From: Ruminococcus flavefaciens | GTDB taxonomy: Bacteria; Bacillota; Clostridia; Oscillospirales; Ruminococcaceae | Direction of reading: 5' to 3' | Assembly: GCA_023662725.1 (NCBI GenBank) | Contig: JAMPIL010000001.1 | Location: 1,196,449-1,260,448, forward strand | DNA length: 64,000 bases | Shown here: one piece after another, positions 2,666 through 38,820 of the stretch | Numbering within the stretch: the first letter of the stretch is position 1 | Layout of the letters: each line of letters opens with the position of its first letter | Translations under genes and position numbers: made by a program | Notes under the pieces: model-generated | What the model saw: the letters and a program-made list of their open reading frames with translations, nothing else | Database searches by the model: none | Told to the model about the DNA's origin: nothing

Positions 2666-2743
2666 TGTTTTCATTTCCTTTCAGTTATTATGAAATATAT
2701 ATAATCCGCCGCCGTTTAAGACGGTAGATTAAAATCATAAAAA

Positions 2744-4795: not shown

Positions 4796-4917
4796 TGTTC
4801 TATACCTCTCTAATATTTTTTCTCATTCCTTTCAGCTTTGTGTTCAAAGCCGAATGCCTGAGTTTAAATTCAGGGTTTGTTACAGATATACCTATAGCTT
4901 GCCCCGCAAATTCATAA
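4796..4917 (-). promoter_or_regulatory. Structured 5' leader of cttA
   Basis: Downstream of the nearer promoter the transcript would carry about 120 bases with nested pairing: CCTGA/TCAGG, then CATTC pairing GAATG around GCTTTG-AACA-CAAAGC, then the ribosome site. I compared it with c-di-GMP-I, c-di-AMP and M-box patterns and could not match it to one. A regulatory role is inferred only from structure and length. Confidence 0.4.
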
Positions 4918-4921
4918 CTTC

Positions 4922-4950
4922 ATTTTAACATATTATTCTCAATAAGTCAA
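4922..4950 (-). promoter_or_regulatory. cttA promoter P2 (gene-proximal)
   Basis: TTGACT (4945-4950), a 17-base spacer and TAAAAT (4922-4927) on the minus strand, about 130 bases before cttA. It is the weaker of two tandem promoters. Confidence 0.55.
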
Positions 4951-5091
4951 GAAGATGTCTATATTTTTTTCAAAAATTATTGACGATTAATTAATGCCTT
5001 TTTTGTGCTTATTTCACAATTCTATCAATATTTTTTATTTCAACTGCTTTTCAACGTATTTTCCTTAAATTTAATTTTCCTCTGTGCTTTT

Positions 5092-5120
5092 ATTATATCA
5101 CAGCAATTTTATATTGTCAA
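5092..5120 (-). promoter_or_regulatory. cttA promoter P1 (distal, consensus)
   Basis: TTGACA (5115-5120), a 17-base spacer ending TGTGA, and TATAAT (5092-5097) on the minus strand: an almost perfect sigma-A promoter just past the scaB terminator. With P2 it accounts for most of the 378-base gap 4796-5173, in which I see no gene. Confidence 0.8.
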
Positions 5121-5136
5121 CTGTATTTTTATGGAT

Positions 5137-5165
5137 AAAAAAGCAGACCCGAAGGTCTGCTTTTT
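5137..5165 (-). terminator. scaB terminator
   Basis: A 12-bp stem, AAAAAGCAGACC against GGTCTGCTTTTT, with loop UUCG on the minus strand and a six-T run, eight bases after the scaB stop. It should separate scaC-scaA-scaB from cttA-scaE. Confidence 0.88.
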
Positions 5166-5173
5166 ATTTAATA

Positions 5174-9175: not shown

Positions 9176-9234
9176 CAGTGCATTTCCTTTCCGAGCGTTA
9201 TGCTCTATTTAATTATTTTCTATTCTCGTTAAAC

Positions 9235-10902: not shown

Positions 10903-11000
10903 TTGTAATAATTCCTTTCTTTAGGTTTTTAGCCTATTACTAAACTTAAAAAATTGGGTTTGTATTCCTTTGTAAGGGGGACAAATCAGATAATCACGGA

Positions 11001-11861
11001 TTAAAGCTCACTAACAAGTTCAAGCTTGAATTTCTGGATTTGAAGTGCATCGTCATTAGTTACACCATCTCCGCCTTTGCCAGCGTCTCCGCCTGCAACA
11101 TCGGCATTCTTTAAGCCCTGTTCAGTGATATGAGTATCGTTGCTGCCGTTAATACCATAACCGTCTGGATTTGAAAGAGACTGCATAATAAGAACAGCAT
11201 CAGACATATCTATCTTGCCATCACAGTTAGCGTCTCCACGCATTCCTACCGGAATTGGTGTATCGCCTGCAACTTTAACGTATCCGTCAACAGCATTGAC
11301 TGTATAGGAAATCTTTTCGCTGCCGTTGAAATATCCGCAATTGATATTGGCGTTTTTTACACCTGAATCCGGGTATGTTTCACGATCGGTAGGAACAGCC
11401 TTAAAATCAATAACAGTTCCTTCCGGTGCATCTGCTGAAACAGTTCCGGAAATTGTACAAAAAACTCCATCCTTACTGATCCAGTAAGATGAATCTTCTG
11501 CAGCTGTTGTCCATACTAATCTTACTTCACCATCAGAAAATGAGCTTCCGAAAAGCGGAACATCAGCAGCAGACGGATCATTTGAATCAGCTCCTGTGGT
11601 TGCAGATGAACCAGCCTCCACCCCATCGATAGTAAAATATGTGGAATCATAAACAATTGCAAAATCAGTTGCTTGAATTCCTGTAGACGGAATATCAGCC
11701 AATGATACATCCACTGTAACCTTATCGCCTGCATTCGCCTCAACCTTGCTAACGCTTATCTGCACTGTATCGTTAGCAGCAACAACGGGCGCAATCGGGC
11801 ATACGGAAAGTGAAAGCATCGTAGCAGCGATAGCTCCGACGACTACCTTTTTTGTCTTCAT
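11001..11861 (-). CDS. scaC: Adaptor scaffoldin ScaC: one cohesin plus dockerin
   Basis: 286 residues: signal peptide (to about 29), one cohesin (about 30-195; VEANAGDKVTVDVSLADIP is a typical first strand pair) and a dockerin (about 207-286) starting RGDANCDGKIDMSDAV, with no Thr linker. In R. flavefaciens ScaC docks onto ScaA and presents a cohesin of different specificity, so it changes which enzymes the complex accepts. It is the first gene of the cluster, 98 bases before scaA. The start at 11861 was chosen because AAGGAGG lies 8 bases upstream; an upstream in-frame extension lacks such a site. The second dockerin loop region is Gly/Asp-rich and unusually long. Confidence 0.9.
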   Translation of the reverse strand: MKTKKVVVGAIAATMLSLSVCPIAPVVAANDTVQISVSKVEANAGDKVTVDVSLADIPSTGIQATDFAIVYDSTYFTIDGVEAGSSATTGADSNDPSAADVPLFGSSFSDGEVRLVWTTAAEDSSYWISKDGVFCTISGTVSADAPEGTVIDFKAVPTDRETYPDSGVKNANINCGYFNGSEKISYTVNAVDGYVKVAGDTPIPVGMRGDANCDGKIDMSDAVLIMQSLSNPDGYGINGSNDTHITEQGLKNADVAGGDAGKGGDGVTNDDALQIQKFKLELVSEL

Positions 11862-12118
11862 TAATTTTTCCTCCTTTTTCATTGATGTTATATAACAAAG
11901 GAACAATAGCCCCTTTTATTATATCGTGTCTTAATTGCAGCAGCCCCTGCCGCAGCATCCACTGAAATCAGATACATAGCGCATATCTGAACTGCAAAGC
12001 GGCATTTCTGCTTCTGCGGTTTATACAGACTGAAAATTCGCTCCGCACACAGTAGTTTCAGCGTAAGACGCATCACACTGCCATGATGAGATACCTAATC
12101 CAAATCTATATCTATTCT
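11862..12118 (-). promoter_or_regulatory. Long structured leader of the scaC-scaA-scaB transcript
   Basis: From the likely transcription start near 12118 to the scaC ATG there are about 257 untranslated bases. They contain GCCGC...GCGGC enclosing GCA/TGC and a CAGATA...TATCTG hairpin, plus small hairpins CATCA/TGATG and GCGT-CTT-ACGC and a TGCGG/CCGCA pairing. A 62-codon reading frame inside lacks a good ribosome site and I do not call it. No known riboswitch was recognised. The whole 421-base gap to capA (11862-12282) otherwise holds only the promoter. Confidence 0.5.
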
Positions 12119-24159: not shown

Positions 24160-27100
24160 TTATTCATCATCTTCTTTTTTGAGCGAACGTGATACAAATG
24201 CTGTTGCTGCTGCGAGAGCGATAACTGCAAGTGAAGCGCCTATGCCCTTGACTCCTGTCTTAGGAGCATTAGTAGATGAAGCCGGTTTAGACTTAGTTGT
24301 TGTAGTCTTAGAAGCTGGTTTTGCTTTTGTTGTTGTAGTTTTTTCTGTAGCTGCAGTTGTTGTAGTAGTTGTTGTTGCTTCATCGCCCTTAACATCAACT
24401 GTAGTTGTAGTAGTTGTTGCTGTGTTATGGTCGATATCAATATCTTCTGTTGTAGTAGTTGTTGTTGTGGTGGTCGTAGTTGTTGTTGTGGTTGTAGTAG
24501 TCGTCGTTGTAGTAGTTGTTGTAGTAGTTGTTGTAGTGGTGGTTGTTGTAATATCAATTGCCTCATCGATCATTACTACAGTATCAGTATCAACATCAAG
24601 TCCATCAATAGTAACAAGTTTTCCGTCCTTGATCTCGAATTCAATATCTGTTGCAACCTGATATCCCTCTGGAGCTGTAAGCTCATGGAGGATATATGTT
24701 CCGTCTACAAGTTTAACTGTAGTTTCAGAAGTTCCTGAAATCCAGATGAGTGAAGCGCCGAAGCCGTTTACAAGCTGTGCGTCTGTTCCAAGCTCAATTG
24801 TGTCTTCTTCAAATACGATTGTATTGCCGTCTACGTCAGTACCAGTAAGTGTAAGAGTTGCACCCTTAACTTCATCACCGTATACATCCTGCTTATCAAT
24901 CTTGATTTCAGCTGTTACAGTAATGGTGGTGGTAGTTTCTTCTGTAGTTGTCGTAGTCGTTGTTGTAGTTGTTTCTTCTGTGGTTGTCGTAGTCGTGGTA
25001 GTTGTGGTAGTTGTTGTTGTCGTTGTTGTGGTGGTAGTTGTCGTTGTAGTCGTAGTCGTATCGGAAGTTGTGGTTGTCGTTGTAGTTGTTGTTGTTGTAG
25101 TCGTATCGGAAGTTGTTGTTGTGGTTGTAGTAGTTGTTGTTGTCGTTGTAGTCGTTGTCGTGGTAGTCGTTGTCGTGGTAGTCGTTGTTGTGGTAATCAC
25201 CTTATCGATCATCTCAACTTCGTTGTCCTTGCCGACAATTCCGCCTTCGATAACCTTGCCGTCCTTAACCGTAAATACGATATCAGTTTCAGCTTTTTCG
25301 TATCCTTCCGGAGCTACGCTCTCGTGGAGAGTATAAGTACCGTCTTCTACGAGTACTGTTGTTGCTTCCTTTCCGGATAACCATACAAGCGTTGAGCCGG
25401 TTGCATTCATTATGCTTCCGCCTTCGCCTACGTTCAATGAACCTGCTTCAAACTCTATCGGTGTTCCGTCTGGCTTCACTCCTGTGAGTTCGAGCTGAGC
25501 TCCCACTACTTCATTTCCGCCTGCTGCATCTACCTTGTTGATCACCACTTCATATTTTGGTATTGTCGTGGTCGTTGTTTCTTCTGTAGTTGTCGTAGTC
25601 GTTGTTGTAGTTGTTTCTTCTGTGGTTGTCGTAGTCGTGGTAGTTGTGGTAGTTGTAGTCGTTGTAGTCGTATCAGAAGTTGTTGTGGTGGTTGTAGTTG
25701 TAGTCGTATCGGAAGTTGTGGTTGTCGTTGTAGTCGTGGTTGTCGTTGTTTCTTCTGTTGTAGTTGTCGTAGTCGTTTCTTCTGTAGTTGTAGTTGTGGT
25801 TGTTGTAGTTGTAGTCGTTGTCGTGGTAGTCGTTGTTGTGGTAATCACCTTATCGATCATCTCAACTTCGTTGTCCTTGCCGACAATTCCGCCTTCGATA
25901 ACCTTGCCGTCCTTAACCGTAAATACGATATCAGTTTCAGCTTTTTCGTATCCTTCCGGAGCTACGCTCTCGTGGAGAGTATAAGTACCGTCTTCTACGA
26001 GTACTGTTGTTGCTTCCTTTCCGGATAACCATACAAGCGTTGAGCCGGTTGCATTCATTATGCTTCCGCCTTCGCCTACGTTCAATGAACCTGCTTCAAA
26101 CTCTATCGGTGTTCCGTCTGGCTTCACTCCTGTGAGTTCGAGCTGAGCTCCCACTACTTCATTTCCGCCTGCTGCATCTACCTTGTTGATCACCACTTCA
26201 TATTTTGGTATTGTCGTGGTCGTTGTTTCTTCTGTAGTTGTCGTAGTCGTTGTTGTAGTTGTTTCTTCTGTGGTTGTCGTAGTCGTGGTAGTTGTGGTAG
26301 TTGTAGTCGTTGTAGTCGTATCAGAAGTTGTTGTGGTGGTTGTAGTTGTAGTCGTATCGGAAGTTGTGGTTGTCGTTGTAGTCGTGGTTGTCGTTGTTTC
26401 TTCTGTTGTAGTTGTAGTCGTTGTTGTAACTTCAGAGGCTTCATCAATCATTACGATCGTATTGTCCTTAACCTCTTCGCCATCTGTTCTTGTAACTTTT
26501 CCATCCTTGACTATGAATACGATATCATTAGCTTTTTCATATCCATCAGGAGCATTTTCTTCGTGAAGCGTATATGTTCCGTTTGGAAGACCTATTGCAA
26601 ATATATCTTTCGAGGAAGTCCACACAAGCTTTGTTGCTGTGTCTGATGTTACATCAGAATCATTGCCAACCTTTTTATTGAATGTGTAGAAATGTGCTTC
26701 TGCATTTGCACTGTTATCAACAGAATCTGCGATAATATTTCCCTCAAAGTTTCCTCCGGTAATTGTAACAGTTGCATTCGGAGCAACAATGTGTCCGGTA
26801 AGATAGTTTGAAGAAACCGACATAGCATCCGGTAGATTAAAAATCAAACCGATACCGTCTTCAAGATTAATCTGTGAATCTGTCTGTGAGCCTGCAAGAC
26901 TTTTCAATGCTTCACTTAAGCTTGAACCGTTAAGAGAAATATTAGGTCCCGCTGAACCATATGAAGTAAATTCCAGACCGATCGGATTATCATTTACATC
27001 GGTAATTGAAATAACATATCCGCCGTTTACAAGTGCCTCTAAATCTTCAACACCTGTAAGATTAATTTTTTCTGCCTGCTTAAAAATTTCATATGGAATT

Positions 27101-30100
27101 GTAATTTTTCCATTTTTTGCAACAGATAAATCTACTGTAAGAACATGATTCGTATCTAAGGAATCTTCGCCGATTGTTGTTCCGATTTTTCCATAAGATT
27201 CAGACTGTGCTTTAATTGCAGTCATTGCCTTATCAAAATCAATATACAAATCTGATTTATTCTTCTGAACAAAATATGAATAAACGTTTGTTGTAGAATC
27301 CGGAGCATTAATTATAGCATTATAATAAACCTTATTCAGACCTTTGTTTCTTATTTCCTCAGCAAGTTCTTTGCTGATTTTTTCCACATATCCTGACATA
27401 TTATAGTTGCCATATTGCAAAAGTGTTCCGCCGATCACTGTAGGAGCAACCGCACCGTCACCCCATGCACCCAATGTCGCATTTTCTCCTGCTGCAACTG
27501 CACCAACAGTATGTCCTGTAGCAATCAGGTTTGTGAATACAAAATACTGATAATCCGATAAGAAATTTTCTATCGTATATGCACTTGGATATTTTGTTGT
27601 AATAGACGTGTCAGTTGTTTCGTTTGCAGACTCGTCTGTATTTGTGGTTTTATCCGCATCATCTGTGCCATTTGTGCCTGAACCGGATGCTGCAAAATAA
27701 TCCTTGTATTCTTCGCCGAAAATTATTGCATTTCCGTCATCATCCACACCCGTGAGAGAAAGTTCTGCACCCGGAAGTCTTGATCCTGCATTATCCTGCT
27801 TATCAATATTAACAACAACAGTGGTGGTTGTTTCTTTTGTAGTTGTAGTAGTTGTTGTTGCTGTAGTTGTCGTCGTTGTTGTTGTTGACGTTGAAGCATA
27901 GTTCGGAACATCAATATTGATCGGATTTTTTGTATCATCTATCTGCACATTAGGAGCAGTATTTTTGATACCATTGATTGTCAGCGTCGGATAATCTTTA
28001 AGAGCATTTCCAACAGTGATCGTATTTGTTGACGAAGTATACTCTGTTCCGTCATTTAAAGTAAAGCTTTCTGCCTTTACTCCGTCTTTAAGATTAATTT
28101 TAATGCTTTCGAGTACATCATTTGCTGGTGCTGTTTCAGAGCAGTCAATAATAATGCTGTCTACTGAACCATCCCAAATGGAGAATTTAATATTACCATT
28201 GTTATCAAACTGTGCATTTGATAAACCTGCAACATCTACAGTCATATTATTGTCTGATGTAAATACTAAACTGTCTTTACCATCGTCTCTGCCTATCCAA
28301 CGCCAGTCATCAGTCTTAACCTGAATATTTACGCCTGAAGAACCGTTTACAATAATTTTATTAATCTTAAGGTTGGCAAAATCAGGATAACTTTTAGCAG
28401 GTTCATTATCATTTGTAACCATTTCACTACTTTTAATGGTTAATTCTTGACTCTTTGTATCTGTTAAGATATCATCAATCTTAAGTACTCCGTCCTTACC
28501 AACTTTGGCAGTTCCTTCAACTTTCTTATCTCCGGCATAATTGAGAGTATAAGAAACATCATAAGAATCATCTTCGTCTCTTGTTACGGAATAATCATTA
28601 TTAATTGTAAAGTACAATTTTTCTGATAATACTTCATATCCCTCGGGAGCTTTTGATTCCGTGATATAGTATCTGCCGGTATCAAGATGTCCGAGATCAA
28701 GAGTACCGTCTTCATCTGCTGTAAGACCTTCTTTTACAAGAACATCACTGCCATCCTTATAAACAGCGAGATTGGCAGGATTCTGTGTAATAGCTTCCCA
28801 TGTTTCGCCGTCAACCTTAGTAAGCTTAACGGTCTTTGCCGTATTCACAAATTCGGGAACTTTATTTGAAATACGAGAAATCATCATGCTTTCGGCATCG
28901 TAATAGTAAGTACCGTCAATGCCCGCAAAAGTGCTGGGTTCTGCAGGATCAACACCGATTACATCAATTTCTTTATCATCACTCTGCATCGTAACTTTGG
29001 TAACGCTTCCGTTCTCAATATAAAGCTTATATTGAGTTTCCACCTGAGGCATAGTAGGAGGTAATATGCTTCCGCTGTTATCAGCCTTTATTGTGATTGT
29101 TCTTGAAATCTGATTGCCCTCTTCATTGTATTCGTCAGTATAGGTCAGATTTCTTATTATTTCCCCGTCAAGAGTTACTTTAACCTCTACCTCTTTAGGA
29201 ACGGTTCCGTCTTCAAATTCCTGAACTTCCTTAACTTCTTCAATAATTTTTACTTCGTAGGTCTTATCTGTCAATAAATAACCTGCCGGAGCAGCCACTT
29301 CTTTTAAGGTGTATGTTTTTTCAATCGCTCCAACCTTTGCATCGGATGTATCAATTGAAGAAGGAATAGTTATGAAGTTGTATGTACCGTCGATAGTTTC
29401 AACATCTGAAGCTATATCGCCGTTTTCTTCAAGTCCGAGTGTTGCGCCTGCAAGAGGATTTTCACCATCTGTCTTTGAAACAGCAAGTGCATATCCGGAA
29501 ACAGAACCGAGCATTGAAATCGGACCGCCAAATGGTCTGTAGCCAAATTCAGCATATCCTTCAAAACTCTTCGCAATCAATGCACCTGATAAATGCGGAT
29601 TAGGACCACCATGTGCTTGATGATTGAATTTTTCATCTGTTACATTTGCATTTGGAGCAAGCACTGTTCCATAGAACGAAGCACCACTGAGAATAACATA
29701 TTCTGCATTGGGAATGTTGTAAAGAATTGATGTTGTACCGGGTAAATTGTTATGCTTATTATCATTTGTAATAGAACCACCCGTACCGATCTCAACGCCA
29801 TTAACAGTTGCAGTTGATCTATTTTGATCTTCTGCTGAAGCATACTTACCAAGATGTATACCTGAAATATCTTCACTATCGCCTGCATCCGAGTTATCGG
29901 TCTGTGGAATATTTACTACTATATAAGCATATTCCCATGTAGAGCTTGTTCCATCATTGTTTACAACTTCTCTTGCTTCTGGAAGTTTAGGAACATTCAC
30001 GTACTTGATGTTCATTGAATTTCGGAAATTCTGCAACATATCATCTGGAATTGTTGCATAAACAGTTTCCTGCGGAACATCGCTATTTCCCATATACGTA

Positions 30101-30864
30101 AAAGTTATAGTTCCACCATCTTCTGGACTATATGATATCTCAAACTGATTCTCTTTTTTGGCAAGGCTTTTTTTGCTGCGATTACGAAGTTCTTCAATTT
30201 GTTTTTTAACATCAAAAATTTCTGACCCTTCATAAATGTAATCTTCTGGATCACCAGTCCAAAGATATAATCCAGCAAATTGTAAGAAGTCACTCTGGAA
30301 AGTAACATTATCCTTAGTTGTAACCCAATATCTTTTTTCAGTATTGCCCTTTGTGCCATCTGGAAGAATAGAGTCTTCATCCCACGCCGTAGGAAGCACA
30401 TTTAAAACTTGACCTTGTGCAATAACATGAGCAAATCCATTGTTTTCTAATAACTTTTCAAGACTTACAGTATTGGAATAATCTCCCTTACCAACTTCAT
30501 ATGCGTTGATGTCTTTTGGGATAAGACTTCCTCCTAAAGCCATACGACCTTCTGAATCTGAATCATGCGGTACAAAGTCCCCTTCAAGAAACACCGAAAA
30601 TTGAGAAGCAATACCAAGAGCATACGATTGATTGTAATTCTTTATAGTATCAATTACATCTTTACCCTTCTTGCCATTTTCACCAACAAGTAAAGTGACA
30701 TCGTCGTTTTTTCTTGATTCATCCCCAGATGCAGGATAAATGGGATTCGCCGCATTGGTCAGCAAACCACCGCCCAACTGCAATCCGGACGGCAGCATAT
30801 AAGAAACCGCCAGAACTGCCGAAGTAACGCCGCTTAACAGCCGCTTCCCCCATGTTTTTTTCAT
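24160..30864 (-). CDS. Giant sortase-anchored adhesin (CAA and SpaA/Cna-B-like domains)
   Basis: 2234 residues. Signal peptide; a choice-of-anchor-A (CAA) domain (about 45-450: FLEGDFVPHDSDSEGRMALG early, GTVLAPNANV late); SpaA/prealbumin-like domains (about 455-590, 675-770); a beta-rich region (about 800-980); then four SpaA-like units separated by long Thr/Glu linkers. The first unit (about 1015-1500) contains a second whole CAA domain (about 1070-1410); the second and third are identical in sequence; the fourth differs. The C-terminus has APKTG, a hydrophobic helix and KKEDDE. SpaA-type domains serve as stalks, often with isopeptide bonds, and CAA domains occur in surface proteins of unknown ligand. 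Binding to host, fibre or other cells is inferred. It is transcribed alone. Confidence 0.88.
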   Translation of the reverse strand: MKKTWGKRLLSGVTSAVLAVSYMLPSGLQLGGGLLTNAANPIYPASGDESRKNDDVTLLVGENGKKGKDVIDTIKNYNQSYALGIASQFSVFLEGDFVPHDSDSEGRMALGGSLIPKDINAYEVGKGDYSNTVSLEKLLENNGFAHVIAQGQVLNVLPTAWDEDSILPDGTKGNTEKRYWVTTKDNVTFQSDFLQFAGLYLWTGDPEDYIYEGSEIFDVKKQIEELRNRSKKSLAKKENQFEISYSPEDGGTITFTYMGNSDVPQETVYATIPDDMLQNFRNSMNIKYVNVPKLPEAREVVNNDGTSSTWEYAYIVVNIPQTDNSDAGDSEDISGIHLGKYASAEDQNRSTATVNGVEIGTGGSITNDNKHNNLPGTTSILYNIPNAEYVILSGASFYGTVLAPNANVTDEKFNHQAHGGPNPHLSGALIAKSFEGYAEFGYRPFGGPISMLGSVSGYALAVSKTDGENPLAGATLGLEENGDIASDVETIDGTYNFITIPSSIDTSDAKVGAIEKTYTLKEVAAPAGYLLTDKTYEVKIIEEVKEVQEFEDGTVPKEVEVKVTLDGEIIRNLTYTDEYNEEGNQISRTITIKADNSGSILPPTMPQVETQYKLYIENGSVTKVTMQSDDKEIDVIGVDPAEPSTFAGIDGTYYYDAESMMISRISNKVPEFVNTAKTVKLTKVDGETWEAITQNPANLAVYKDGSDVLVKEGLTADEDGTLDLGHLDTGRYYITESKAPEGYEVLSEKLYFTINNDYSVTRDEDDSYDVSYTLNYAGDKKVEGTAKVGKDGVLKIDDILTDTKSQELTIKSSEMVTNDNEPAKSYPDFANLKINKIIVNGSSGVNIQVKTDDWRWIGRDDGKDSLVFTSDNNMTVDVAGLSNAQFDNNGNIKFSIWDGSVDSIIIDCSETAPANDVLESIKINLKDGVKAESFTLNDGTEYTSSTNTITVGNALKDYPTLTINGIKNTAPNVQIDDTKNPINIDVPNYASTSTTTTTTTTATTTTTTTKETTTTVVVNIDKQDNAGSRLPGAELSLTGVDDDGNAIIFGEEYKDYFAASGSGTNGTDDADKTTNTDESANETTDTSITTKYPSAYTIENFLSDYQYFVFTNLIATGHTVGAVAAGENATLGAWGDGAVAPTVIGGTLLQYGNYNMSGYVEKISKELAEEIRNKGLNKVYYNAIINAPDSTTNVYSYFVQKNKSDLYIDFDKAMTAIKAQSESYGKIGTTIGEDSLDTNHVLTVDLSVAKNGKITIPYEIFKQAEKINLTGVEDLEALVNGGYVISITDVNDNPIGLEFTSYGSAGPNISLNGSSLSEALKSLAGSQTDSQINLEDGIGLIFNLPDAMSVSSNYLTGHIVAPNATVTITGGNFEGNIIADSVDNSANAEAHFYTFNKKVGNDSDVTSDTATKLVWTSSKDIFAIGLPNGTYTLHEENAPDGYEKANDIVFIVKDGKVTRTDGEEVKDNTIVMIDEASEVTTTTTTTTEETTTTTTTTTTTTSDTTTTTTTTTTSDTTTTTTTTTTTTTTTTTEETTTTTTTTTTEETTTTTIPKYEVVINKVDAAGGNEVVGAQLELTGVKPDGTPIEFEAGSLNVGEGGSIMNATGSTLVWLSGKEATTVLVEDGTYTLHESVAPEGYEKAETDIVFTVKDGKVIEGGIVGKDNEVEMIDKVITTTTTTTTTTTTTTTTTTTTEETTTTTTTEETTTTTTTTTTTTSDTTTTTTTTTTSDTTTTTTTTTTTTTTTTTEETTTTTTTTTTEETTTTTIPKYEVVINKVDAAGGNEVVGAQLELTGVKPDGTPIEFEAGSLNVGEGGSIMNATGSTLVWLSGKEATTVLVEDGTYTLHESVAPEGYEKAETDIVFTVKDGKVIEGGIVGKDNEVEMIDKVITTTTTTTTTTTTTTTTTTTTTTTTTTTTSDTTTTTTTTTTTTTSDTTTTTTTTTTTTTTTTTTTTTTTTTTTEETTTTTTTTTTEETTTTITVTAEIKIDKQDVYGDEVKGATLTLTGTDVDGNTIVFEEDTIELGTDAQLVNGFGASLIWISGTSETTVKLVDGTYILHELTAPEGYQVATDIEFEIKDGKLVTIDGLDVDTDTVVMIDEAIDITTTTTTTTTTTTTTTTTTTTTTTTTTTTTTTTTTEDIDIDHNTATTTTTTVDVKGDEATTTTTTTAATEKTTTTKAKPASKTTTTKSKPASSTNAPKTGVKGIGASLAVIALAAATAFVSRSLKKEDDE
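25201..26415 (-). repeat. Perfect tandem duplication inside the adhesin gene
   Basis: The segment beginning at 25201 recurs 648 bases later at 25849. I compared both by eye and found them identical for about 565 bases, covering a whole SpaA-like unit and part of its Thr linker. This implies very recent duplication or a repeat-collapse risk in assembly. Confidence 0.9.
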
Positions 30865-31186: not shown

Positions 31187-33211
31187 TTATTTTTCAATAG
31201 ATTTAACGATATATCTTCCGCAAAGCTTTCTGCTTTTTCCGACATTAAAGACGTGTTCTCTGAAAGTTTTTGCAATAGAATCACGATACTGCTCTTTTTC
31301 TTCAAGCATTTTGGCGATTGTTTCATTAATAGCATCGAGCTTATTAGTATCCATAGAAACACCGATAACGTCCCTGAGAGTAATATTTATGGGCTTGGTT
31401 TTGATTTTATCCCATTCCTGATTCATAACCTTCATCGGGGTATTGATAAACAGCACCGGACGCTTCGTTACAAAAGCAAATTCCCACGAAATATCCGACC
31501 AATCGGTAATAAGGATATCAGATTCCATGATAGGATTGTTAGAGGAAAAATCCGTTTGAATTTCGATATTATTGAATTTACCGAACTTTTCTTTCATAAC
31601 CTCAAATTTTTCCGGCTGATGCCTAACCTGCTGAGGATGCGGACGAACGATTATCTCATAATCCGTTTCCGAAAGTTTTTCGAGAATATCATCGATACAC
31701 GAATCAATAATATTATCCGGCTGCCAGGAAGGAGCGATAAGTATTCTTGGGATTTTGTTCTCCTCATGCTCAGAGCTTTCGTATTTTTCGATCATCTCGT
31801 CGATAAGAGGATAACCCGTTTCAACAAGTCTCTTTTTCGGAGTGTTATAAATCTCCTCAGCGTCTCTTATCTCGTTAACGCAGTCGATTCCAACGGCAAA
31901 AACGGTATCGTACCAATCCAGCGCACCTTTTCTGAGCGTAAGAGCCGTACTTCCCATACCGTGGAAAGCGTAAACGTACTCGATATTCTTATTAACTCTT
32001 GAACGCTTGATATGATATTTTTCCAGATCAGGAGTTGTCATAACGCACATTCTGCAATCAAGCTTCATGAAAAGCGGAATCAGATATTTATCCGAAGCTA
32101 TATAATAGGGATGGATCTGCTCCCTTGAATCCTTGAACACAGCGTCGTTCGGATCGCTTGTAACATAATGTATAACGATATCTGAGTTCTCACAGATATA
32201 GTCTATCATTCCGGAATAATACTTAAAGAATCCGCTCTGCTCGGAATAAAACACAAGCTTCATATCCTTTTCAGAGAAGAATTTTTTATAATCAGCTTTT
32301 TCCCTGACTCCATACTGCTTATGAAGTTTCTCTTTTTCAATGCGCTGTTCACGCATTTTCTTGAGATAATCGTAATCAATGTACTTTTTCGGAGGCATAC
32401 AAAGATTTGTAACGAACATAAGCGGAATTCCGAAAAGGTTTCCGAAAATCCAGTAAAGCCCTACTCCGGCAGGAACGAGAAGCGCAAAATATGTAGAAAA
32501 CGCAACCATAAATATCGTCGTCAGTATCTTATTTGCATTTCCCTGTGCCATCTGAAGAATATTTATCTTATTCTGAACATAACAGAGCAGCCATGCGCTG
32601 AATCCTGAGAGAAAAGGTATGATAAGAAGAATATAATCCCTTTTGAACGACGGAGTTTTGCTCAGGTCGAGTCCAAAAAAATTCATATCCAATGCTTTGA
32701 TATCAGAAATAGCTTTGCTGAAATTTCCATCCGGAACAACGCCGTCTTTAATACGTCTGATGATCTCGCACTGATAGGAGTTATCAGCAGCAGCGTCGCT
32801 TCCCTTTCCGACTATTCCGATAAGCCAGTCCCGAAGCTGAGAAATAACGTCTGCATCTATCTGCAAAACGTATGAAAGCGGACGGTAGATAACGTAAACA
32901 AGTCCGAGAACGAGCGGAATCTGTATAAGAAGCGGTATCGTTCCAAGAATCGGATGATACTTATATCTTTTATATAGCGCAAGCCTTTCGTCGGCAAGCT
33001 TATCTTTATCGTCGATATATTTGATTTTAAGAGCATTCTCCTCCGGCATGAGCCTTACCATATTTATGGAATTTTTCTGCGTTAAAAGGCTAAGCGGGAA
33101 AAGAAGGAACTTTGTAAAAAGCGTAAAAACGATAATACTAAGTCCGTAATTGTTAATAACATTATAGATAAGGCTCATAACCCATCCAAGAATCGTACCT
33201 AAAACTGCCAT
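31187..33211 (-). CDS. Fusion of YidC/Oxa1 insertase and CDP-glycerol glycerophosphotransferase
   Basis: 674 residues. Residues about 1-280 are a YidC domain: membrane segments near 8-40, 85-115, 195-215 and 230-270, with NMVRLMPE, a charged cytoplasmic hairpin DDKDKLADERLALYKRYKYHP and GTIPLLIQIPL. The usual groove arginine position appears to be lysine (FTKFLLFPL). A Lys/Arg-rich linker leads to a TagF-like domain (about 320-670; PF04464-type) with the catalytic-type AFHGMGST (His about 413), SWQPD, RPHPQQ and DILITDWSDISWEF. TagF-type enzymes polymerise glycerol phosphate from CDP-glycerol on a lipid carrier at the inner membrane face. YidC C-termini are cytoplasmic, so the topology is consistent. 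It is last in an operon with two sulfatase-fold transferases. Confidence 0.9.
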   Translation of the reverse strand: MAVLGTILGWVMSLIYNVINNYGLSIIVFTLFTKFLLFPLSLLTQKNSINMVRLMPEENALKIKYIDDKDKLADERLALYKRYKYHPILGTIPLLIQIPLVLGLVYVIYRPLSYVLQIDADVISQLRDWLIGIVGKGSDAAADNSYQCEIIRRIKDGVVPDGNFSKAISDIKALDMNFFGLDLSKTPSFKRDYILLIIPFLSGFSAWLLCYVQNKINILQMAQGNANKILTTIFMVAFSTYFALLVPAGVGLYWIFGNLFGIPLMFVTNLCMPPKKYIDYDYLKKMREQRIEKEKLHKQYGVREKADYKKFFSEKDMKLVFYSEQSGFFKYYSGMIDYICENSDIVIHYVTSDPNDAVFKDSREQIHPYYIASDKYLIPLFMKLDCRMCVMTTPDLEKYHIKRSRVNKNIEYVYAFHGMGSTALTLRKGALDWYDTVFAVGIDCVNEIRDAEEIYNTPKKRLVETGYPLIDEMIEKYESSEHEENKIPRILIAPSWQPDNIIDSCIDDILEKLSETDYEIIVRPHPQQVRHQPEKFEVMKEKFGKFNNIEIQTDFSSNNPIMESDILITDWSDISWEFAFVTKRPVLFINTPMKVMNQEWDKIKTKPINITLRDVIGVSMDTNKLDAINETIAKMLEEKEQYRDSIAKTFREHVFNVGKSRKLCGRYIVKSIEK

Positions 33212-33229
33212 ACAAACACTCCTGAAAAA

Positions 33230-33469
33230 TTAATCTTCGTCAAGAAGATCATCAGCGGTTATAACATCCTTTTCATTGCCGTGAAGACTGTTAACTTCAG
33301 AAGCATCTATTGCAGGAGTTTCATCCTTTTTCTTTTTGAAAAGACGTTTTATCTTACTCCAGAAAATTCCGATAAAGGTTCCGGCAGCGATAATAATACC
33401 GGCTCCTATCTGAATAATAAAGCTTGTGGTTGCGGGGTCGATGTACATAGAAGCTGTTAAATTAAACAT
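33230..33469 (-). CDS. Small one-helix membrane protein of the YidC-TagF operon
   Basis: 79 residues: YIDPATTSF motif, one membrane helix (about 12-33), a basic stretch KIKRLFKKKK, then an acidic tail ending DLLDED. The polarity suggests a periplasm-facing short N-terminus and cytoplasmic tail. It begins 51 bases after the upstream transferase and stops 18 bases before the fusion gene, so it is part of the operon. Start chosen at the second ATG (33469), 10 bases from AAAGGA; 33478 is the alternative. The function is unknown; it could be a partner or anchor for the fusion protein. Confidence 0.8.
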   Translation of the reverse strand: MFNLTASMYIDPATTSFIIQIGAGIIIAAGTFIGIFWSKIKRLFKKKKDETPAIDASEVNSLHGNEKDVITADDLLDED

Positions 33470-33520
33470 ATTTATCATTTCCTTTCAATATTGTCCTTTT
33501 ATAATAAGTAACGCACAACG

Positions 33521-35314
33521 TTACTCATGCTCTGCCTGCGCTTCCCAGTTATCGAAATCTCTTGCGTCCCCGGTTATTTTATAAAGGGTTTTATAAATTA
33601 TTTCACCGGCTGTAACATATTGAAATGTCTGAAGATAACGATCGGGATGAAGATTTTGATTAATTATATCATTATAAGAATATCCGTAATCAGAATGACT
33701 GATTCCGGCATATTCGAGAATGCTTGCCATAAAAAAGTCATTGGAAAGCTCGCTTGTACTGTCTATTTTCAGCGGTTCTGAATCTGATCGGGCTGGTTTT
33801 ATAAGAAGACCTGTCGTTATTGCATGAGTAAGCTTATCCATACCATTATCCAATCCAAATGCAATACGGCCATGATCGCCGACAATTATAATAGTAGAAT
33901 TATCGTAAACGTCAAGTTTTTTCATCTGCCGCAGATATTCAAATATGATTTCATACGCACCTCTTGCTGTAGAAATTCTGTCAAAGTTCTGCGATTCGTC
34001 ACCATTATTATAAAGTGCGGATATAATTTCGTTTTGTCCATGTGCGCCGTTAAGATGAATAAACGTAAATGTCTTATTGCTCGAATCAGATTTCAGCCCA
34101 TACCTTTTTATATAATTATTAAATTTAATGTCTGATTTTGGTTCAATAGCAACAGGAGCAAGCTTTTCATCAATTTCGGGTAAATATGATATAAACTCAT
34201 TTGAAAATCCCGGAGCTATATCCTTTGTTGTAATTCCTTTAAATATGTACGGAAGCGTTCTTGAAAACGAGAATCTGGTCATTACTGGAACTATTCCGTT
34301 TTTTCCGATATAATTGAAATTATAATCGCTTCTTTGACAATATTCTATATTATCACAAATATCTTCAAGCTGATGATAATTATTAAACTCGGTAGTTTTA
34401 TCTATAAAAAGGTTTACATGGTAATTATTATTTTTAAGTTCATGCGGAATGGTATTATTCTTCCATGCCTTTTCAAGAAAATCAACCCAGATTTCTCCTT
34501 CATAATACGAGCCTGTCAGCATTTGTGCAACCGAAGGAAAAGTATTCGTATTATGTGCAATGTTATTCTGATAAAAAGTGAACCCCTCAAGTTCATCTTT
34601 TACTTCAGGATAGCGTTCGATAACTTCATCCATCCAGAGACTATCAAGTCTGTCAAAAAGAAATACAACAATATTTTCTTCTTTAGAAAGAGACATTGCC
34701 GATTCATACGAAAAATATGAAGAATACGCATTTTTATTCTTATTCTGATCGGTATTTAAAATAGTAACTAATGTTCCGCAGAGCTGCATCAGAAAAATCA
34801 GTGACGCTGCATACGGAACGATCAGCTTATTTCCTTTATTCAACCACTTTATATCAGATTTTTTATGTGCTGCTGCATAAATGATAATAGGAATAAACAA
34901 TATAAAATAATAAAAAATAAAATTAATTACATTTGTCTTCATATCCTCAGGATAAGTAATGATTCCATTTTGGGATGACATTTTTCCGTTAAAAAAGAGA
35001 CTTTGAATATAACAAGCCAGAAGGAATCCTAAAATAAGTCTCAGAACTATCTCAAAAGCTTTCTCACAAATTTTATGCAATAAAATTAAAATCATCAGAA
35101 CAGTGGCAAAACACACTAATGAAACAATCAGCAATGGAATTGCCGCCTGCTCAAAATTTATAAGAAATTCTTTTTGATTCCCAAGAAATACTTCAATTGA
35201 TGAAAAGAAAAAAATAGTAAAAGATACGGATATGCTCAGCATAACTGCGGCAAACATATTCTTTTTATCAAGGAGCTTTCTATTTATTTTAGTTTTAAAG
35301 CAACCAGACTTCAT
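33521..35314 (-). CDS. Membrane sulfatase-fold (alkaline phosphatase superfamily) transferase, copy 2
   Basis: 597 residues. About five N-terminal membrane helices (to about 180), then an extracellular sulfatase-like domain with VVFLFDRLD (metal Asp, about 218), NTNTFPSVAQML (likely Thr nucleophile, about 254) and GDHGR (metal Asp-His, about 479). The layout is like LtaS and related phosphoglycerol or phosphoethanolamine transferases, but length and motif order fit no specific one I can name. It is a paralogue of the next gene upstream, with the same ending NWEAQAEHE/NWEAQEEHE. The ATG at 35314 shares one base with the upstream stop and follows GGAGGAG. Confidence 0.85.
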   Translation of the reverse strand: MKSGCFKTKINRKLLDKKNMFAAVMLSISVSFTIFFFSSIEVFLGNQKEFLINFEQAAIPLLIVSLVCFATVLMILILLHKICEKAFEIVLRLILGFLLACYIQSLFFNGKMSSQNGIITYPEDMKTNVINFIFYYFILFIPIIIYAAAHKKSDIKWLNKGNKLIVPYAASLIFLMQLCGTLVTILNTDQNKNKNAYSSYFSYESAMSLSKEENIVVFLFDRLDSLWMDEVIERYPEVKDELEGFTFYQNNIAHNTNTFPSVAQMLTGSYYEGEIWVDFLEKAWKNNTIPHELKNNNYHVNLFIDKTTEFNNYHQLEDICDNIEYCQRSDYNFNYIGKNGIVPVMTRFSFSRTLPYIFKGITTKDIAPGFSNEFISYLPEIDEKLAPVAIEPKSDIKFNNYIKRYGLKSDSSNKTFTFIHLNGAHGQNEIISALYNNGDESQNFDRISTARGAYEIIFEYLRQMKKLDVYDNSTIIIVGDHGRIAFGLDNGMDKLTHAITTGLLIKPARSDSEPLKIDSTSELSNDFFMASILEYAGISHSDYGYSYNDIINQNLHPDRYLQTFQYVTAGEIIYKTLYKITGDARDFDNWEAQAEHE

Positions 35315-37119
35315 CACTCATGCTCCTCCTGCGCTTCCCAGTTATCGAAATCTCTTGCGTCTCCGGTTACTTTATAAAGAGTTTTATATATAACTCTTCC
35401 ATAACCGCCGAAATCATATGTCTGGAAATAGCGTTCAGGATGAAGATTTCCGTTTATAACATCATTAAATGAATATCCGAATTTTTCGTGATCTATTCCT
35501 GCGTATTCAAGAATGCTTGCCGGGAAGAAATCGTTGGAAAGCTCGGATTTGCTGTCAAATTTAAGAGGTTTCGTCTCAGCGTTCTTCGGTTTTATGAGAA
35601 GTGCGGTAGTTATTGCGCTCTCAATACCGTCTTTGCCCTCTCTTTCTATCTCAAAAGGAGCTCTTCCGTGATCGCCAAGTACGATGATCGTAGAATTATC
35701 ATAGATTCCGAGTTTTTTCATCTGATCAAAATAATAGAACAGAATCTCGAAATCGCCTCTTGTTGTGGACCATCTGTCGGTCGGAATGGAACTGTCGTAA
35801 AGAGCAGTCAGCTCATCGGAATTATCATGCGCTCCGTTAAGATGTATGTATGAAAAAGTTTTCGTATCGCTTCCGGCATTAAATTCGTGACTTTTAATGT
35901 AGTCGTTATATTTCAGGTCGGATTCTATTCCGACAGCCATAGGCATCATATCGTCCATAGGCTTGCTGTATGTCACAAAATCTGCCGAAAGGTTTGCTCC
36001 AAGACCGACTGTCACAAGGCTTTTGCAGATATACGGCGAAAGCTTTGAAAGCGAAATCTGTGCCATAGTCGGAACTATACCGCCCTTGCGGACATAATTG
36101 AACTTAACATCGTCGGTACCGCACGATAAAATATTATCGCACTGACCGTCTAACTGAGCAACACTGCTGTATGTCGTAAGATTATCTATAAGAAGATTGA
36201 CCCTGTATCCGTTTTCTTTAAGATTTTTAGCGACTGTATCGCATTCCCATGCCTTGCTGACATAGTCTGCCCATTCAGTGCCCTGATACCGATAATTGGT
36301 AAGCATCTGAGCAACCGACGGAAAGGTATTGGTATTATGGGAAATATTATTCTGATAGAATGTAAATCCCTCGAACTTATCGTTCAGATCGGGATATTCG
36401 TCAATAATCGTGTCCATCCAGAGTCCATCGAGACGGTCTACGAGAAAAACCACTATATTCTCATCCTGCGAAAGCGACATTGACGGTTCGTAAGAAAGAT
36501 AAGACGTATAGGTCTTTTGGTATTTGTCAAAATCAGCCGTGAGCATTGAAGATCCGGTTCCGGCAAGCTGCATTCCGAAAATAAGAATACTTAAATAGGG
36601 AATTATCATGCCCTTTCCGAAACCTAAGACTTTATTTGTCTTGAATTTGCCTGCAAGGATGCTGAGAATAAGCGGAAGAATTATTAATACAATATAAATC
36701 GCAAGGTTCAGTATAACGGTGAACTTATTGTCACTGTAGCGGGCATCGTCGCCTGTTATAGCAGCCATTTTACTGTTGAGGAAAAGCGACTGAATATAAG
36801 CTGCAAGAGTTATTCCGAAAATCAATCTTGATATTACCATATAAACCTTTTCATGAATTATCAGAAAAATATTCTGAATAAGAATAAGCAGAGCAGCGCT
36901 TATCAGCGACGTTATAAGAAGCGGAGCTGCAACATGACCAAAGCTTACGACGAATTCTTTCTGATTTCCGAGAAATATGTCTACAGGCGAAAAAAAGAAA
37001 AATGTAAAGCTTGCCGTAAAGCTCAACAGAATGATAAGCAGTTCATTTTTCTTATTCAGCTTTGAAGATGTTTTTGTTTTATTATTTTCCTGAATTTGAT
37101 TTTCAGTTTTATTTATCAT
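35314..37119 (-). CDS. Membrane sulfatase-fold transferase, copy 1
   Basis: 601 residues, first gene of the operon. It has the same design as copy 2: about five membrane helices, then a sulfatase-like domain with VVFLVDRLDGLWMD (about 226), NTNTFPSVAQML (about 261) and GDHGRAPFE (about 485). The pair probably arose by tandem duplication and then diverged through most of its length. Likely substrates are lipid-linked or lipid phosphoglycerol units outside the membrane, inferred from the TagF-like neighbour. Start chosen at the ATG at 37119, 9 bases after AAGGGG; upstream in-frame codons lack a site. Confidence 0.85.
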   Translation of the reverse strand: MINKTENQIQENNKTKTSSKLNKKNELLIILLSFTASFTFFFFSPVDIFLGNQKEFVVSFGHVAAPLLITSLISAALLILIQNIFLIIHEKVYMVISRLIFGITLAAYIQSLFLNSKMAAITGDDARYSDNKFTVILNLAIYIVLIILPLILSILAGKFKTNKVLGFGKGMIIPYLSILIFGMQLAGTGSSMLTADFDKYQKTYTSYLSYEPSMSLSQDENIVVFLVDRLDGLWMDTIIDEYPDLNDKFEGFTFYQNNISHNTNTFPSVAQMLTNYRYQGTEWADYVSKAWECDTVAKNLKENGYRVNLLIDNLTTYSSVAQLDGQCDNILSCGTDDVKFNYVRKGGIVPTMAQISLSKLSPYICKSLVTVGLGANLSADFVTYSKPMDDMMPMAVGIESDLKYNDYIKSHEFNAGSDTKTFSYIHLNGAHDNSDELTALYDSSIPTDRWSTTRGDFEILFYYFDQMKKLGIYDNSTIIVLGDHGRAPFEIEREGKDGIESAITTALLIKPKNAETKPLKFDSKSELSNDFFPASILEYAGIDHEKFGYSFNDVINGNLHPERYFQTYDFGGYGRVIYKTLYKVTGDARDFDNWEAQEEHE

Positions 37120-37278
37120 TTTCATTTTCCCCTTATCGTAATATTGCATATAATCAAGCAACTTACATTGTATCACAGCATCCTCACAATGTCAAGAAAG
37201 CTATGTATAAAAGGGCAATTATAACAAAATTGTAATGATATGAATCAGCGTAAATATTTATTTTTTCAAAGCGAATAG

Positions 37279-37307: not shown

Positions 37308-38279
37308 TTAAAGAATTAATATTGACCTCTTTTTTCTCGAATGAATCCGTATGGGACCATATCTTTTATAAAACAACATATTTACGGTTTTATCGGGCAG
37401 TCTTGAATAATAATGCAGCGTCACATTTAGATGTTCCGTATATGATTTTAGGCAGATTTCTGAAAAATTCTTTTTCATAGGTATATCAGAAACCGTTCTT
37501 CCATGGTCCGTATTCGATGATTTAACGGAAAACAATTCCATATTTCTTATGATACCTGTGGTTGTGGATGTCACATAGATGGTAGAAGTAGTAATGGTTG
37601 TGGTTGTCGTTGTTGTCGTTGTTGTCGTGGTGGTGGTGGTCGTCGTAGTGATCAGTGATGTTGTGATGCGGGTAGTTGTTTCATAATTACCGGTAGTTGA
37701 CGAAAGCGTAGCTATAATTGTTGTTCCGGAAGTACCCGTGGTTCTCGAATTGGAAGTATGTACAGCAGTCGTGGTTACGGAAGGTTCAGCTAAAGTCGTT
37801 GTTGCAGAAGGTCCGGCTAAAGTTGTTGTTACAGACGGCTCGGATGCAGTTGTTGTTTTGTATGATGCTGCTCGAGTAGACGAAACAGCATTATTCCCCT
37901 CAGAAGCCGGATGTTGCGTAGATACAACCGTTGTTGACGTATTAGATGAATGTTTTTTTCCTGTTGTTGTAGTTACATCCGCCTTTGTTGTAACGATATC
38001 GGATTCCTTCGTTGTGGAAACCGGATCTTTTTTATCCGTATTATCCTCTATTTCCGGAGAAATAATTCCATCGATCACTATTCTGCTGCTGTCCAAATCA
38101 GAAGGAATTGAACGCAGACGGCTACTGTTAAGAATTCCTATTCCTGCAATAACTAAAACGCAGCAGCTCAATGCAATTGAAATATTCTTTAGCCAAACGG
38201 AACGTTTAGTTTTTTTGGCTGCCAAATACTCGTCTCTGCGCTTAAAAACATCCTCAGCAATTTCTTTATAGGATTTCAA
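37308..38279 (-). CDS. Thr-rich membrane protein, putative anti-sigma partner
   Basis: 323 residues. A cytoplasmic N-terminus (about 1-35, with KSYKEIAEDVFKRRDEYLAAKK), one membrane helix (about 36-55), a long Ser/Thr-rich extracellular stalk including a pure Thr run (about 60-245), and a basic C-terminal segment of about 80 residues. It overlaps the end of the sigma gene by 14 bases; the start is a TTG 9 bases after AAGGAGG, so expression is coupled. The plan matches one-helix anti-sigma proteins such as RsgI, but I cannot see a conserved sigma-binding domain or carbohydrate-binding module. Role as sensor is inferred from context. Confidence 0.7.
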   Translation of the reverse strand: MKSYKEIAEDVFKRRDEYLAAKKTKRSVWLKNISIALSCCVLVIAGIGILNSSRLRSIPSDLDSSRIVIDGIISPEIEDNTDKKDPVSTTKESDIVTTKADVTTTTGKKHSSNTSTTVVSTQHPASEGNNAVSSTRAASYKTTTASEPSVTTTLAGPSATTTLAEPSVTTTAVHTSNSRTTGTSGTTIIATLSSTTGNYETTTRITTSLITTTTTTTTTTTTTTTTTTITTSTIYVTSTTTGIIRNMELFSVKSSNTDHGRTVSDIPMKKNFSEICLKSYTEHLNVTLHYYSRLPDKTVNMLFYKRYGPIRIHSRKKRSILIL

Positions 38280-38820
38280 ATTCAAATCCCTCCTTTTCAA
38301 GCACGGATTTTAAGGATTGTTTAGCCCTGTATAAAAGATTTTCTATCTGTCTTTTGGATCTGCGCATTATTTTTGCCGTTTCTTCATTTTTAAAATCCTC
38401 AAAAAATGTCAGGTATAAAACCTGACGATAATCAGGATTAAGCTTGCCTAAAGCCTTATGAAGCTGTATTTTCTGCTCTTCTTTAAGATATTCACGTTCT
38501 ATGCTTTCTTCATCCGAAATATCATAGCACTCTTCAATGGGTGTATGAACCATCTTTGAACGACGGCGTATTCCATCGATAGCCGCATTTCTTCCTATTG
38601 AATAAAGCCACGTTTTAAACAGGCTTTTCCCTGAAAAACGAGGTTTTTTCGTAACGAGCTTAAAAAATGTATCTTCCATAAGTTCTTCAGCAATATAAAT
38701 ATTTCCTGTAAGACCGTTAAGATATAGTATAAGACCGTCTTTATAATCACGTATTATCTCTTCCATTCCGCTGTCGTCGCCGTCCAGAAAACGGCGGTAA
38801 CTCGCTGCACCGCTGTCCAT
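38266..38820 (-). CDS. ECF-type RNA polymerase sigma factor
   Basis: 184 residues with region 2 (about 20-85; AEELMEDTFFKL, FKTWLYSIGRNAAID, promoter-melting part) and region 4 (about 120-175; LNPDYRQVLYLTFFEDF, then a helix-turn-helix RRSKRQIENLLYRAKQSL). It should direct RNA polymerase to a dedicated set of promoters, possibly surface or fibre-response genes. A strong AAAGGAGG site precedes the ATG. It is followed, overlapping, by its membrane partner. Confidence 0.92.
   Translation of the reverse strand: MDSGAASYRRFLDGDDSGMEEIIRDYKDGLILYLNGLTGNIYIAEELMEDTFFKLVTKKPRFSGKSLFKTWLYSIGRNAAIDGIRRRSKMVHTPIEECYDISDEESIEREYLKEEQKIQLHKALGKLNPDYRQVLYLTFFEDFKNEETAKIMRRSKRQIENLLYRAKQSLKSVLEKEGFEFEIL

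Follow-up and report, generated by a model that had tools for sequence, protein, structure and literature searches.

We describe a 64,000-nucleotide stretch of the Ruminococcus flavefaciens genome (assembly GCA_023662725.1, contig JAMPIL010000001.1, positions 1,196,449 to 1,260,448; the whole stretch is called the window) and, within it, a gene on the minus strand (31187–33211) whose 674-residue product joins a YidC/Oxa1-like membrane domain to a TagF-like transferase domain. The fusion is genuine, lies in one uninterrupted frame and is not rare. It is part of a four-piece module, consisting of an LtaS-like enzyme of the AlkP superfamily, a single-transmembrane (TM) protein with a YIDP motif, the YidC-like domain and the TagF-like transferase, and this module tracks genes for cytidine monophosphate (CMP)-2-aminoethylphosphonate (AEP) or similar activated headgroups. 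Our preferred reading, to which we give a probability of roughly 0.5, is that the module decorates the cell surface with phosphonyl or phosphoryl headgroups activated by a nucleotide, the fusion being its cytoplasmic half, bound to the membrane. AEP would be the most likely headgroup in this organism; relatives probably use phosphocholine or other amino-alcohol phosphates as well.

A genuine fusion of a YidC-like domain and a TagF-like transferase

The fusion is encoded by a single ATG-started frame without internal stop (31187–33211, stop codon included), and a ribosome-binding-site-like AGGAG (33219–33223, minus strand) lies 7 nt before the ATG. The YidC/Oxa1-like membrane domain (residues 1–270; 32402–33211) contains six hydrophobic segments and matches Pfam 60KD_IMP (PF02096) over residues 22–269 (E = 3.4e-34; 118.6 bits, cut-off 35), as well as the NCBIfam model yidC_oxa1_cterm (109.3 bits, cut-off 84.3). 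The NCBIfam YidC equivalog models all scored below their cut-offs, the best reaching 77.8 bits against a cut-off of 377. The TagF-like GT-B transferase domain (residues 314–674; 31190–32272) matches Glyphos_transf (PF04464) over residues 452–590 (E = 1.4e-12; 47.7 bits, cut-off 22.1). Thus both domains that a sequence-only reading had recognized in the 674-residue frame were recovered above Pfam cut-offs.

In the AlphaFold2 model (mean pLDDT 89.0, pTM 0.68), a long helix (residues 280–313; 32273–32374) runs between the two domains. YidC and TagF were the best structure matches of this model, which shows both the YidC fold and the TagF fold, and the top matches of the transferase domain were TagF 3l7m and 3l7k. 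Four sets of letters in the transferase domain, H417, R523-P-H525-P526, D570-W-S572 and E577, are identical in 29/29 aligned fusions; the first two are the histidine and RPHP motifs that had been picked out from the sequence.

An assembly artefact or a frameshift between the domains was ruled out. Among 60 genomes of the same genus the fusion is full length without an inner stop in 19 (own genome included), so it is not an artefact; in one further genome it is interrupted by a contig end. In named genome records we found at least 563 relatives, and the 80 best-matching loci, which were kept and so favor near relatives, are fused in every case. Among these records are R. flavefaciens YRD2003 and MC2020 as well as Ruminococcus sp. 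FC2018, alongside many assemblies from gut metagenomes. Relatives of the transferase domain occur in 20/247 genomes of a family sample, 23/295 of an order sample and 11/398 of a phylum sample. Fourteen of the family genomes (own included), spread over 13 genera, have fused frames of at least 625 residues, and all 25 non-own matches with at least 40% identity across the three samples are fusions of this kind, hereafter type A. These counts exclude a 129-residue piece at a contig end (G888, locus L098) and matches with E above 1e-10 (G201, G577, G394, G452, G398, G773, G890, G870 twice, G760 and G859). One scan of viral contigs with the transferase domain as a single sequence, a weak search that reaches close relatives only, returned no relative.

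Partner proteins encoded in the same operon

The fusion is the last of four genes on one strand, preceded by two AlkP-superfamily (AlkP) enzymes and the YIDP protein, with gaps of −4, 42 and 18 bp. The first gene (35314–37176) encodes a membrane enzyme of 620 residues (Sulfatase PF00884, 39.5 bits, cut-off 25; active-site columns present) and overlaps the second by 4 bp; the second (33521–35317) encodes one of 598 residues with about five TM segments by hydropathy (PF00884, 39.9 bits, cut-off 25). A profile of 20 AlkP proteins matched LtaS best among solved structures (E = 2.3e-10), a structure that we take to be Staphylococcus LtaS. The alignment of these 20 proteins shows conserved Asp, Thr, His and Asp-His columns: T284 is Thr in 19 and Ser in one, and D502 and H503 are invariant (20/20). 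We infer that this Thr is the nucleophile. The PF00884 match, the nearest solved relative and the Thr and Asp-His columns together assign the partner genes to the LtaS-like AlkP transferases.

The third gene (33230–33478), 18 bp upstream of the fusion, encodes an 82-residue single-TM protein with the motif MYIDPATTS, for which a Pfam search gave no family over cut-off. The motif sits directly before the TM segment and, in several relatives, follows by eye a signal-peptide-like stretch ending in AxA; it therefore probably faces outward. A homologue or a motif-bearing small frame was present in 73 of the 80 kept named loci; the conservation of the motif is partly by construction, as the motif search required Y/F-x-D-P. 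In the same loci an AlkP relative was found in 54 and lay within 600 bp in 44, with neighbor-count thresholds of our own choosing. At 25 type A loci fetched from the samples, an AlkP relative was found in 19 and a relative of the small protein in 16. AlkP presence was scored by BLAST alone, leaving 6/25 type A and 26/80 named loci BLAST-negative.

Directly upstream of the operon, on the same strand (37308–38820), a gene for an extracytoplasmic function (ECF) sigma factor is followed by one for a Thr-rich protein with a hydrophobic stretch, possibly its anti-sigma partner; the pair is a possible regulator. Just downstream (24160–30864, minus strand) lies the gene of a 2234-residue surface protein that combines an adhesive domain of ice-binding-like type with six SpaA stretches and long runs of Thr, and whose C-terminus is of the PKTG type. 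A signal-peptidase-like gene was seen in the neighborhood of 7 of 40 transferase loci (L074, L077, L085, L086, L087, L096 and L110) and adjoins the fusion in several.

The same four pieces are joined in other ways

Transferase relatives at 23–29% identity are frames of 342–473 residues without a YidC domain. We fetched 13 such places (24–28% identity) at length, and 12 of them hold a frame of 823–984 residues in which a YidC domain (recognized by hidden Markov model, HMM) is fused to an AlkP domain (recognized by BLAST, with Pfam on three frames). The thirteenth transferase lies at a contig end; a different contig of that genome holds a long PF02096 frame. Four other matches in this identity range (G489, G410, G555 and G569), known from short loci only, each have a YidC HMM frame beside the transferase. 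In this second layout, type B, the separate transferase is itself headed by the YIDP segment, opening with YIDPGTGSMLF in all 12 that have an intact start. At one locus (L096) the small YIDP segment belongs to the AlkP protein instead. At least three arrangements of the same four pieces thus exist, strong evidence that they work together.

A further layout was found in a genome of another class (locus L097, 4694–13724), where an AEP biosynthesis operon runs into a standalone TagF-like transferase and two AlkP-like proteins, and no YidC fusion is present. The order on one strand is PEP (phosphoenolpyruvate) mutase-nucleotidyltransferase, phosphonopyruvate decarboxylase, a second nucleotidyltransferase, AEP transaminase, the transferase (36% identical, identified by Pfam) and the two AlkP-like proteins. 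These names come from sequence recognition; the mutase, decarboxylase and transaminase match those of the R. flavefaciens genome by BLAST at 32–49%. This layout may be the simpler, ancestral arrangement. In a tree of transferase domains, which we did not use as evidence, type B forms a clade (support 100), type A has support of 76, and the standalone L097 transferase sits on a long branch of unsure placement.

Linkage to genes for activated headgroups

About 140 kb from the fusion, the same genome carries a full CMP-AEP-type cassette. It matches the NCBIfam equivalogs for PEP mutase (TIGR02320, 418.8 bits, cut-off 319.55), phosphonopyruvate decarboxylase (TIGR03297, 471.4 bits, cut-off 312.5) and AEP transaminase (TIGR03301, 459.3 bits, cut-off 360.8), and adds two candidates for the AEP-specific cytidylyltransferase (PntC), a 236-residue NTP_transferase/NTP_transf_3 protein (51.0 and 41.1 bits) and a CTP_transf_like domain fused to the PEP mutase. 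The sequence-only reading had named the transferase a CDP-glycerol glycerophosphotransferase (CDP, cytidine diphosphate). The TagF-like fold and motifs stand; CDP-glycerol as the donor is not suggested by this genome, because a complete CMP-AEP-type cassette is present (no search for a tagD gene was made there).

The linkage extends across genomes. In the family sample, PEP mutase was found in 9/14 type A genomes vs. 21/233 others (Fisher p = 2.3e-6, descent ignored), and within the genus in 16/20 fusion genomes vs. 7/40 others (Fisher p = 4.1e-6, likewise ignoring descent). When we clustered the neighbors of 40 transferase loci, nucleotidyltransferase-type proteins recurred at 21 (a cluster that also includes aminotransferase-like proteins sharing a fused partner), phosphonopyruvate decarboxylase at 6, AEP transaminase at 4 and TagD-like proteins at 3. 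The genes can be very close: in four same-genus genomes (L147–L150) phosphonopyruvate decarboxylase, the small protein and the fusion are consecutive, and PEP mutase lies some 5 kb away; at one named locus (L228) a four-gene AEP cassette begins 86 bp from the fusion; and at two type B loci (L107 and L108) the activation cassette is at the same locus.

Five type A genomes of the family sample have no PEP mutase, and all five have another activation gene near the fusion, a pattern that we saw post hoc. Three of these loci (L074, L081 and L083) pair a nucleotidyl- or cytidylyltransferase with an aminotransferase/CobD-like protein; a fourth (L075) has a nucleotidyltransferase-choline kinase and a BCCT-type transporter; and in the fifth genome (G252) the fusion contig ends within a gene resembling that of L075. 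As an observation in its own right, the nucleotidyltransferase/cytidylyltransferase genes of the first three, fused to or beside the CobD-like/aminotransferase genes (at L083, 10490–12304), may activate a further amino-alcohol phosphate. Separately, a nucleotidyltransferase-choline-kinase-like gene (L301; G008:C4:8230–9786), 48% identical to that of L075, is found in one genome that has the fusion and PEP mutase as well; the module may thus be supplied with several headgroups in a single cell.

CMP- and CDP-headgroup genes near the transferase would also suit a model in which its product, a phosphonolipid or a phosphatidylcholine-like lipid, is the end point, the YidC domain only balancing the leaflets and AlkP only recycling. 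Transfer of CDP-alcohols to lipids is normally carried out by other families, however, and AlkP enzymes with conserved active-site letters are encoded in the same operon. We consider this model improbable, even though YidC scrambles phospholipids in vitro (PMC10491306).

The YidC-like domain departs from canonical YidCs

In this genome PF02096 matches in two places, the fusion and a separate YidC. The latter is flanked by genes whose translations read as rpmH, rnpA, yidD and jag. Related genomes have at least two PF02096 matches in 35 of 36 cases; the exception (G949) has a standalone transferase and only a normal YidC. The fusion as the only YidC of the cell was thereby ruled out.

The groove Arg of YidC has a role in insertase function, and Lys at this position of the fusion (Lys34, codon 33110–33112 by alignment) had been taken as a hint of altered insertion. 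This hint did not hold up. The separate YidC of the same genome also carries Lys, and canonical YidCs of related genomes have Lys in 18/29 and Arg in 9/29, so that a groove Lys is ordinary in this lineage. Type A fusions have the positively charged residue in TM1 throughout (Lys 33/34, Arg 1/34), whereas type B has Asn or Gln in 11/11. Other positions do separate the groups. K43 is found in 29/29 canonical YidCs and in 0/34 type A domains, which are hydrophobic there (type B is basic, with Arg in 9 and Lys in 1 of 11); C91 in 29/29 vs. 0/34 type A and 0/11 type B; and P236 in 27/29 vs. 0/34 and 0/11. Conversely, position 81 is basic in 34/34 type A, 10/11 type B and only 2/29 canonical sequences. 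These columns, position 81, C91 and P236 among them, were chosen after viewing the alignment. Eleven YidC-domain residues are invariant over 29 type A fusions. In the 34 type A domains K81, Q213 and N258 have become invariant, Q213 in this type only. The two types have thus left the canonical pattern partly in the same manner. In a quick tree of 74 YidC domains, type A (34) and type B (11) form separate clades with support of 100 each and the 29 canonical sequences fall outside both; the type B branch is very long (2.94), leaving room for a common origin of the two types, and two cut pieces (L108 and L137) were omitted.

These data bear on whether the fusion is still a working insertase, which would bring the transferase to newly inserted proteins, as the sequence-only reading had offered, or would have small substrates of its own to insert, the YIDP protein or the AlkP enzymes for example. 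The retained groove charge in 34/34 type A domains is what such a model expects, and YIDP proteins are of the small single-TM type that YidC inserts. Against it stand the second PF02096 protein in 35/36 genomes, with only a normal one in the genome of the standalone transferase, the loss of K43, C91 and P236 throughout type A, and the loss of the groove charge in type B. We saw nothing pointing to protein substrates; the neighbors that recur are headgroup-activation and AlkP genes. We therefore regard a working insertase as very unlikely.

A second possibility is that the YidC domain merely docks a teichoic-acid-type polymerase at the membrane. The transferase would then polymerize a poly(alditol phosphate)-like product in the cytoplasm for export by a separate flippase, and AlkP would act independently. 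The note's suggestion that the insertase fold serves as a membrane platform survives as one reading. TagF and TarL are among the nearest folds, a single TM segment seemingly suffices for type B transferases, and TagD-like genes lie near the 3 of 40 loci mentioned above, one of them reaching 117 bits against TIGR01518, below the cut-off of 165. A five-TM YidC fold is, however, a large anchor where one TM segment serves in type B; the YidC domain of that type sits on the AlkP enzyme and so is not what anchors the transferase there; and 11 residues of the domain are invariant over 29 type A fusions. Docking alone is possible but rather doubtful.

A proposed route for headgroups across the membrane

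TagF-type enzymes work at the cytoplasmic face, where a CDP-linked donor supplies the headgroup phosphate; for LtaS/EptA-type AlkP enzymes the headgroup comes from a lipid at the outer face. A headgroup that the first kind of enzyme had placed on a lipid would have to cross the membrane to reach the second. The C-terminus of YidC is cytoplasmic, as is TagF catalysis; the topological argument made for the fusion from its sequence thus holds. A YidC fold fused to either enzyme would fit the gap.

In our preferred reading, surface decoration by nucleotide-activated headgroups, PEP mutase, phosphonopyruvate decarboxylase, AEP transaminase and a cytidylyltransferase, all present as genes, would produce CMP-AEP. 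The TagF-like domain, recognizable by fold and motifs, would move the headgroup from CMP or CDP to a membrane-embedded carrier at the inner face. The YidC-like domain, tied to it by one long helix, could hold the carrier in its polar groove as it crosses to the outer leaflet, acting as a scramblase or a gate, and the LtaS-like AlkP enzyme, with its conserved active-site letters, would pass the headgroup to a surface glycan outside. Since the YIDP segment is fused to either partner, its single TM, motif outside, might link the cytoplasmic transferase to the outer enzyme.

We tentatively take this one step further, as a bolder and less probable proposal: a transfer-flip-transfer machine, in which the YidC/Oxa1 fold was twice recruited from protein insertion, once onto a TagF-like cytidylyl-donor transferase and once onto an LtaS-like AlkP transferase, and carries a headgroup-charged lipid across the membrane. 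It would supply the missing step after CMP-AEP in the tailoring of surfaces with phosphonate and choline.

Several results weigh against these proposals. The functions of the module are predictions from genes, folds and linkage. Type A retains the charged groove residue as an insertase would, while type B has Asn or Gln. A profile of the transferase domain against solved chains retrieved no TagF chain at E up to 10; the sequence is thus too far from TagF for donor and acceptor to be read from homology. The L097 transferase has no fused YidC domain, and flipping by such a domain is therefore not universal. The Fisher tests ignore descent, and a descent-corrected test within the genus (a tree of 54/60 genomes, the other six being listed as without a usable canonical YidC) has only 2–4 independent pairs, with which no significance is possible. 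By BLAST, AlkP was detected in only 54 of the 80 kept named loci, and an activation gene within the stretch examined in only 25, 10 of which have a PEP mutase, phosphonopyruvate decarboxylase or AEP transaminase gene.

Individual genomes add to this. In one fusion genome that is 99% complete (G037), neither PEP mutase nor a LicC/LicA-like (choline-type) gene was found. No PEP mutase was found in two less complete fusion genomes (G022, 64%, and G052, 74%) or in a fourth (G039, 98% complete in 270 contigs), which does have a 242-residue nucleotidyltransferase. One of eight controls, a genome without the fusion (G031), has a choline-type gene, and in the family sample only 1/5 type B genomes (G060) has PEP mutase.

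Other genes in the window

Further from the operon, a five-gene cellulosome scaffoldin-like cluster occupies 1643–11906 on the minus strand. It includes a single-cohesin protein (11001–11906), another in which six cohesin stretches accompany a CttA_N domain (5174–9175), and three others without a Pfam family over cut-off; its gene order is presumably that of the R. flavefaciens sca cluster. On the plus strand, 52674–56525 encodes a papain-family protease with lectin-like and dockerin domains, a predicted cellulosomal protease.

Significance and comparison with known systems

To our knowledge there is no known bacterial case of a YidC fold that serves glycan or lipid headgroup traffic instead of protein insertion, and our open-access searches found none. 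In the open-access literature searched, we found no paper on the YidC-TagF fusion or on the module. If the proposal is right, a YidC fold in a bacterium would serve such traffic, and lipid scrambling by Oxa1-family insertases would gain a cellular setting; PMC10491306 describes it for YidC and other Oxa1-family proteins in vitro and for further members in simulations. With two fusion types of opposite kind, the proposed complex is open to direct tests.

The closest pathway is PntC phosphonate tailoring (PMC6697681), with which this genome shares PEP mutase, phosphonopyruvate decarboxylase, AEP transaminase and a nucleotidyltransferase. In the available text of that paper the pathway ends at CMP-AEP, the neighbors are LicD-like phosphotransferases or glycosyltransferases, and no enzyme is assigned to the step after CMP-AEP; the tailoring steps that follow PEP mutase are termed enigmatic in its abstract, which then names nucleotidyltransferases, and YidC, TagF and sulfatase are absent as terms from its main text. 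Our module, if rightly read, would offer candidate enzymes for this step in rumen and gut bacteria.

With YidC/Oxa1/Alb3 insertases (Bacillus halodurans YidC, 3wo6/3wo7) the fusion shares its fold and its PF02096 and yidC_oxa1_cterm matches, but it carries a transferase, loses K43, C91 and P236 (27–29/29 in canonical YidCs) and has another YidC in the cell. The transferase domain is close in fold to the teichoic acid polymerases TagF and TarL (3l7i–3l7m, 8va1) and matches their family PF04464 over cut-off. Unlike them, it is fused to YidC, its Pfam match spans only positions 150–293 of the 367 in the profile, and tagD-like genes are less often linked to it than those of the CMP-AEP or CDP-choline type. 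Finally, the AlkP enzymes of the window resemble LtaS/EptA-type headgroup transferases in having about five TM segments and a catalytic domain, but their family is encoded together with a YidC-like domain, and the two are fused in type B.

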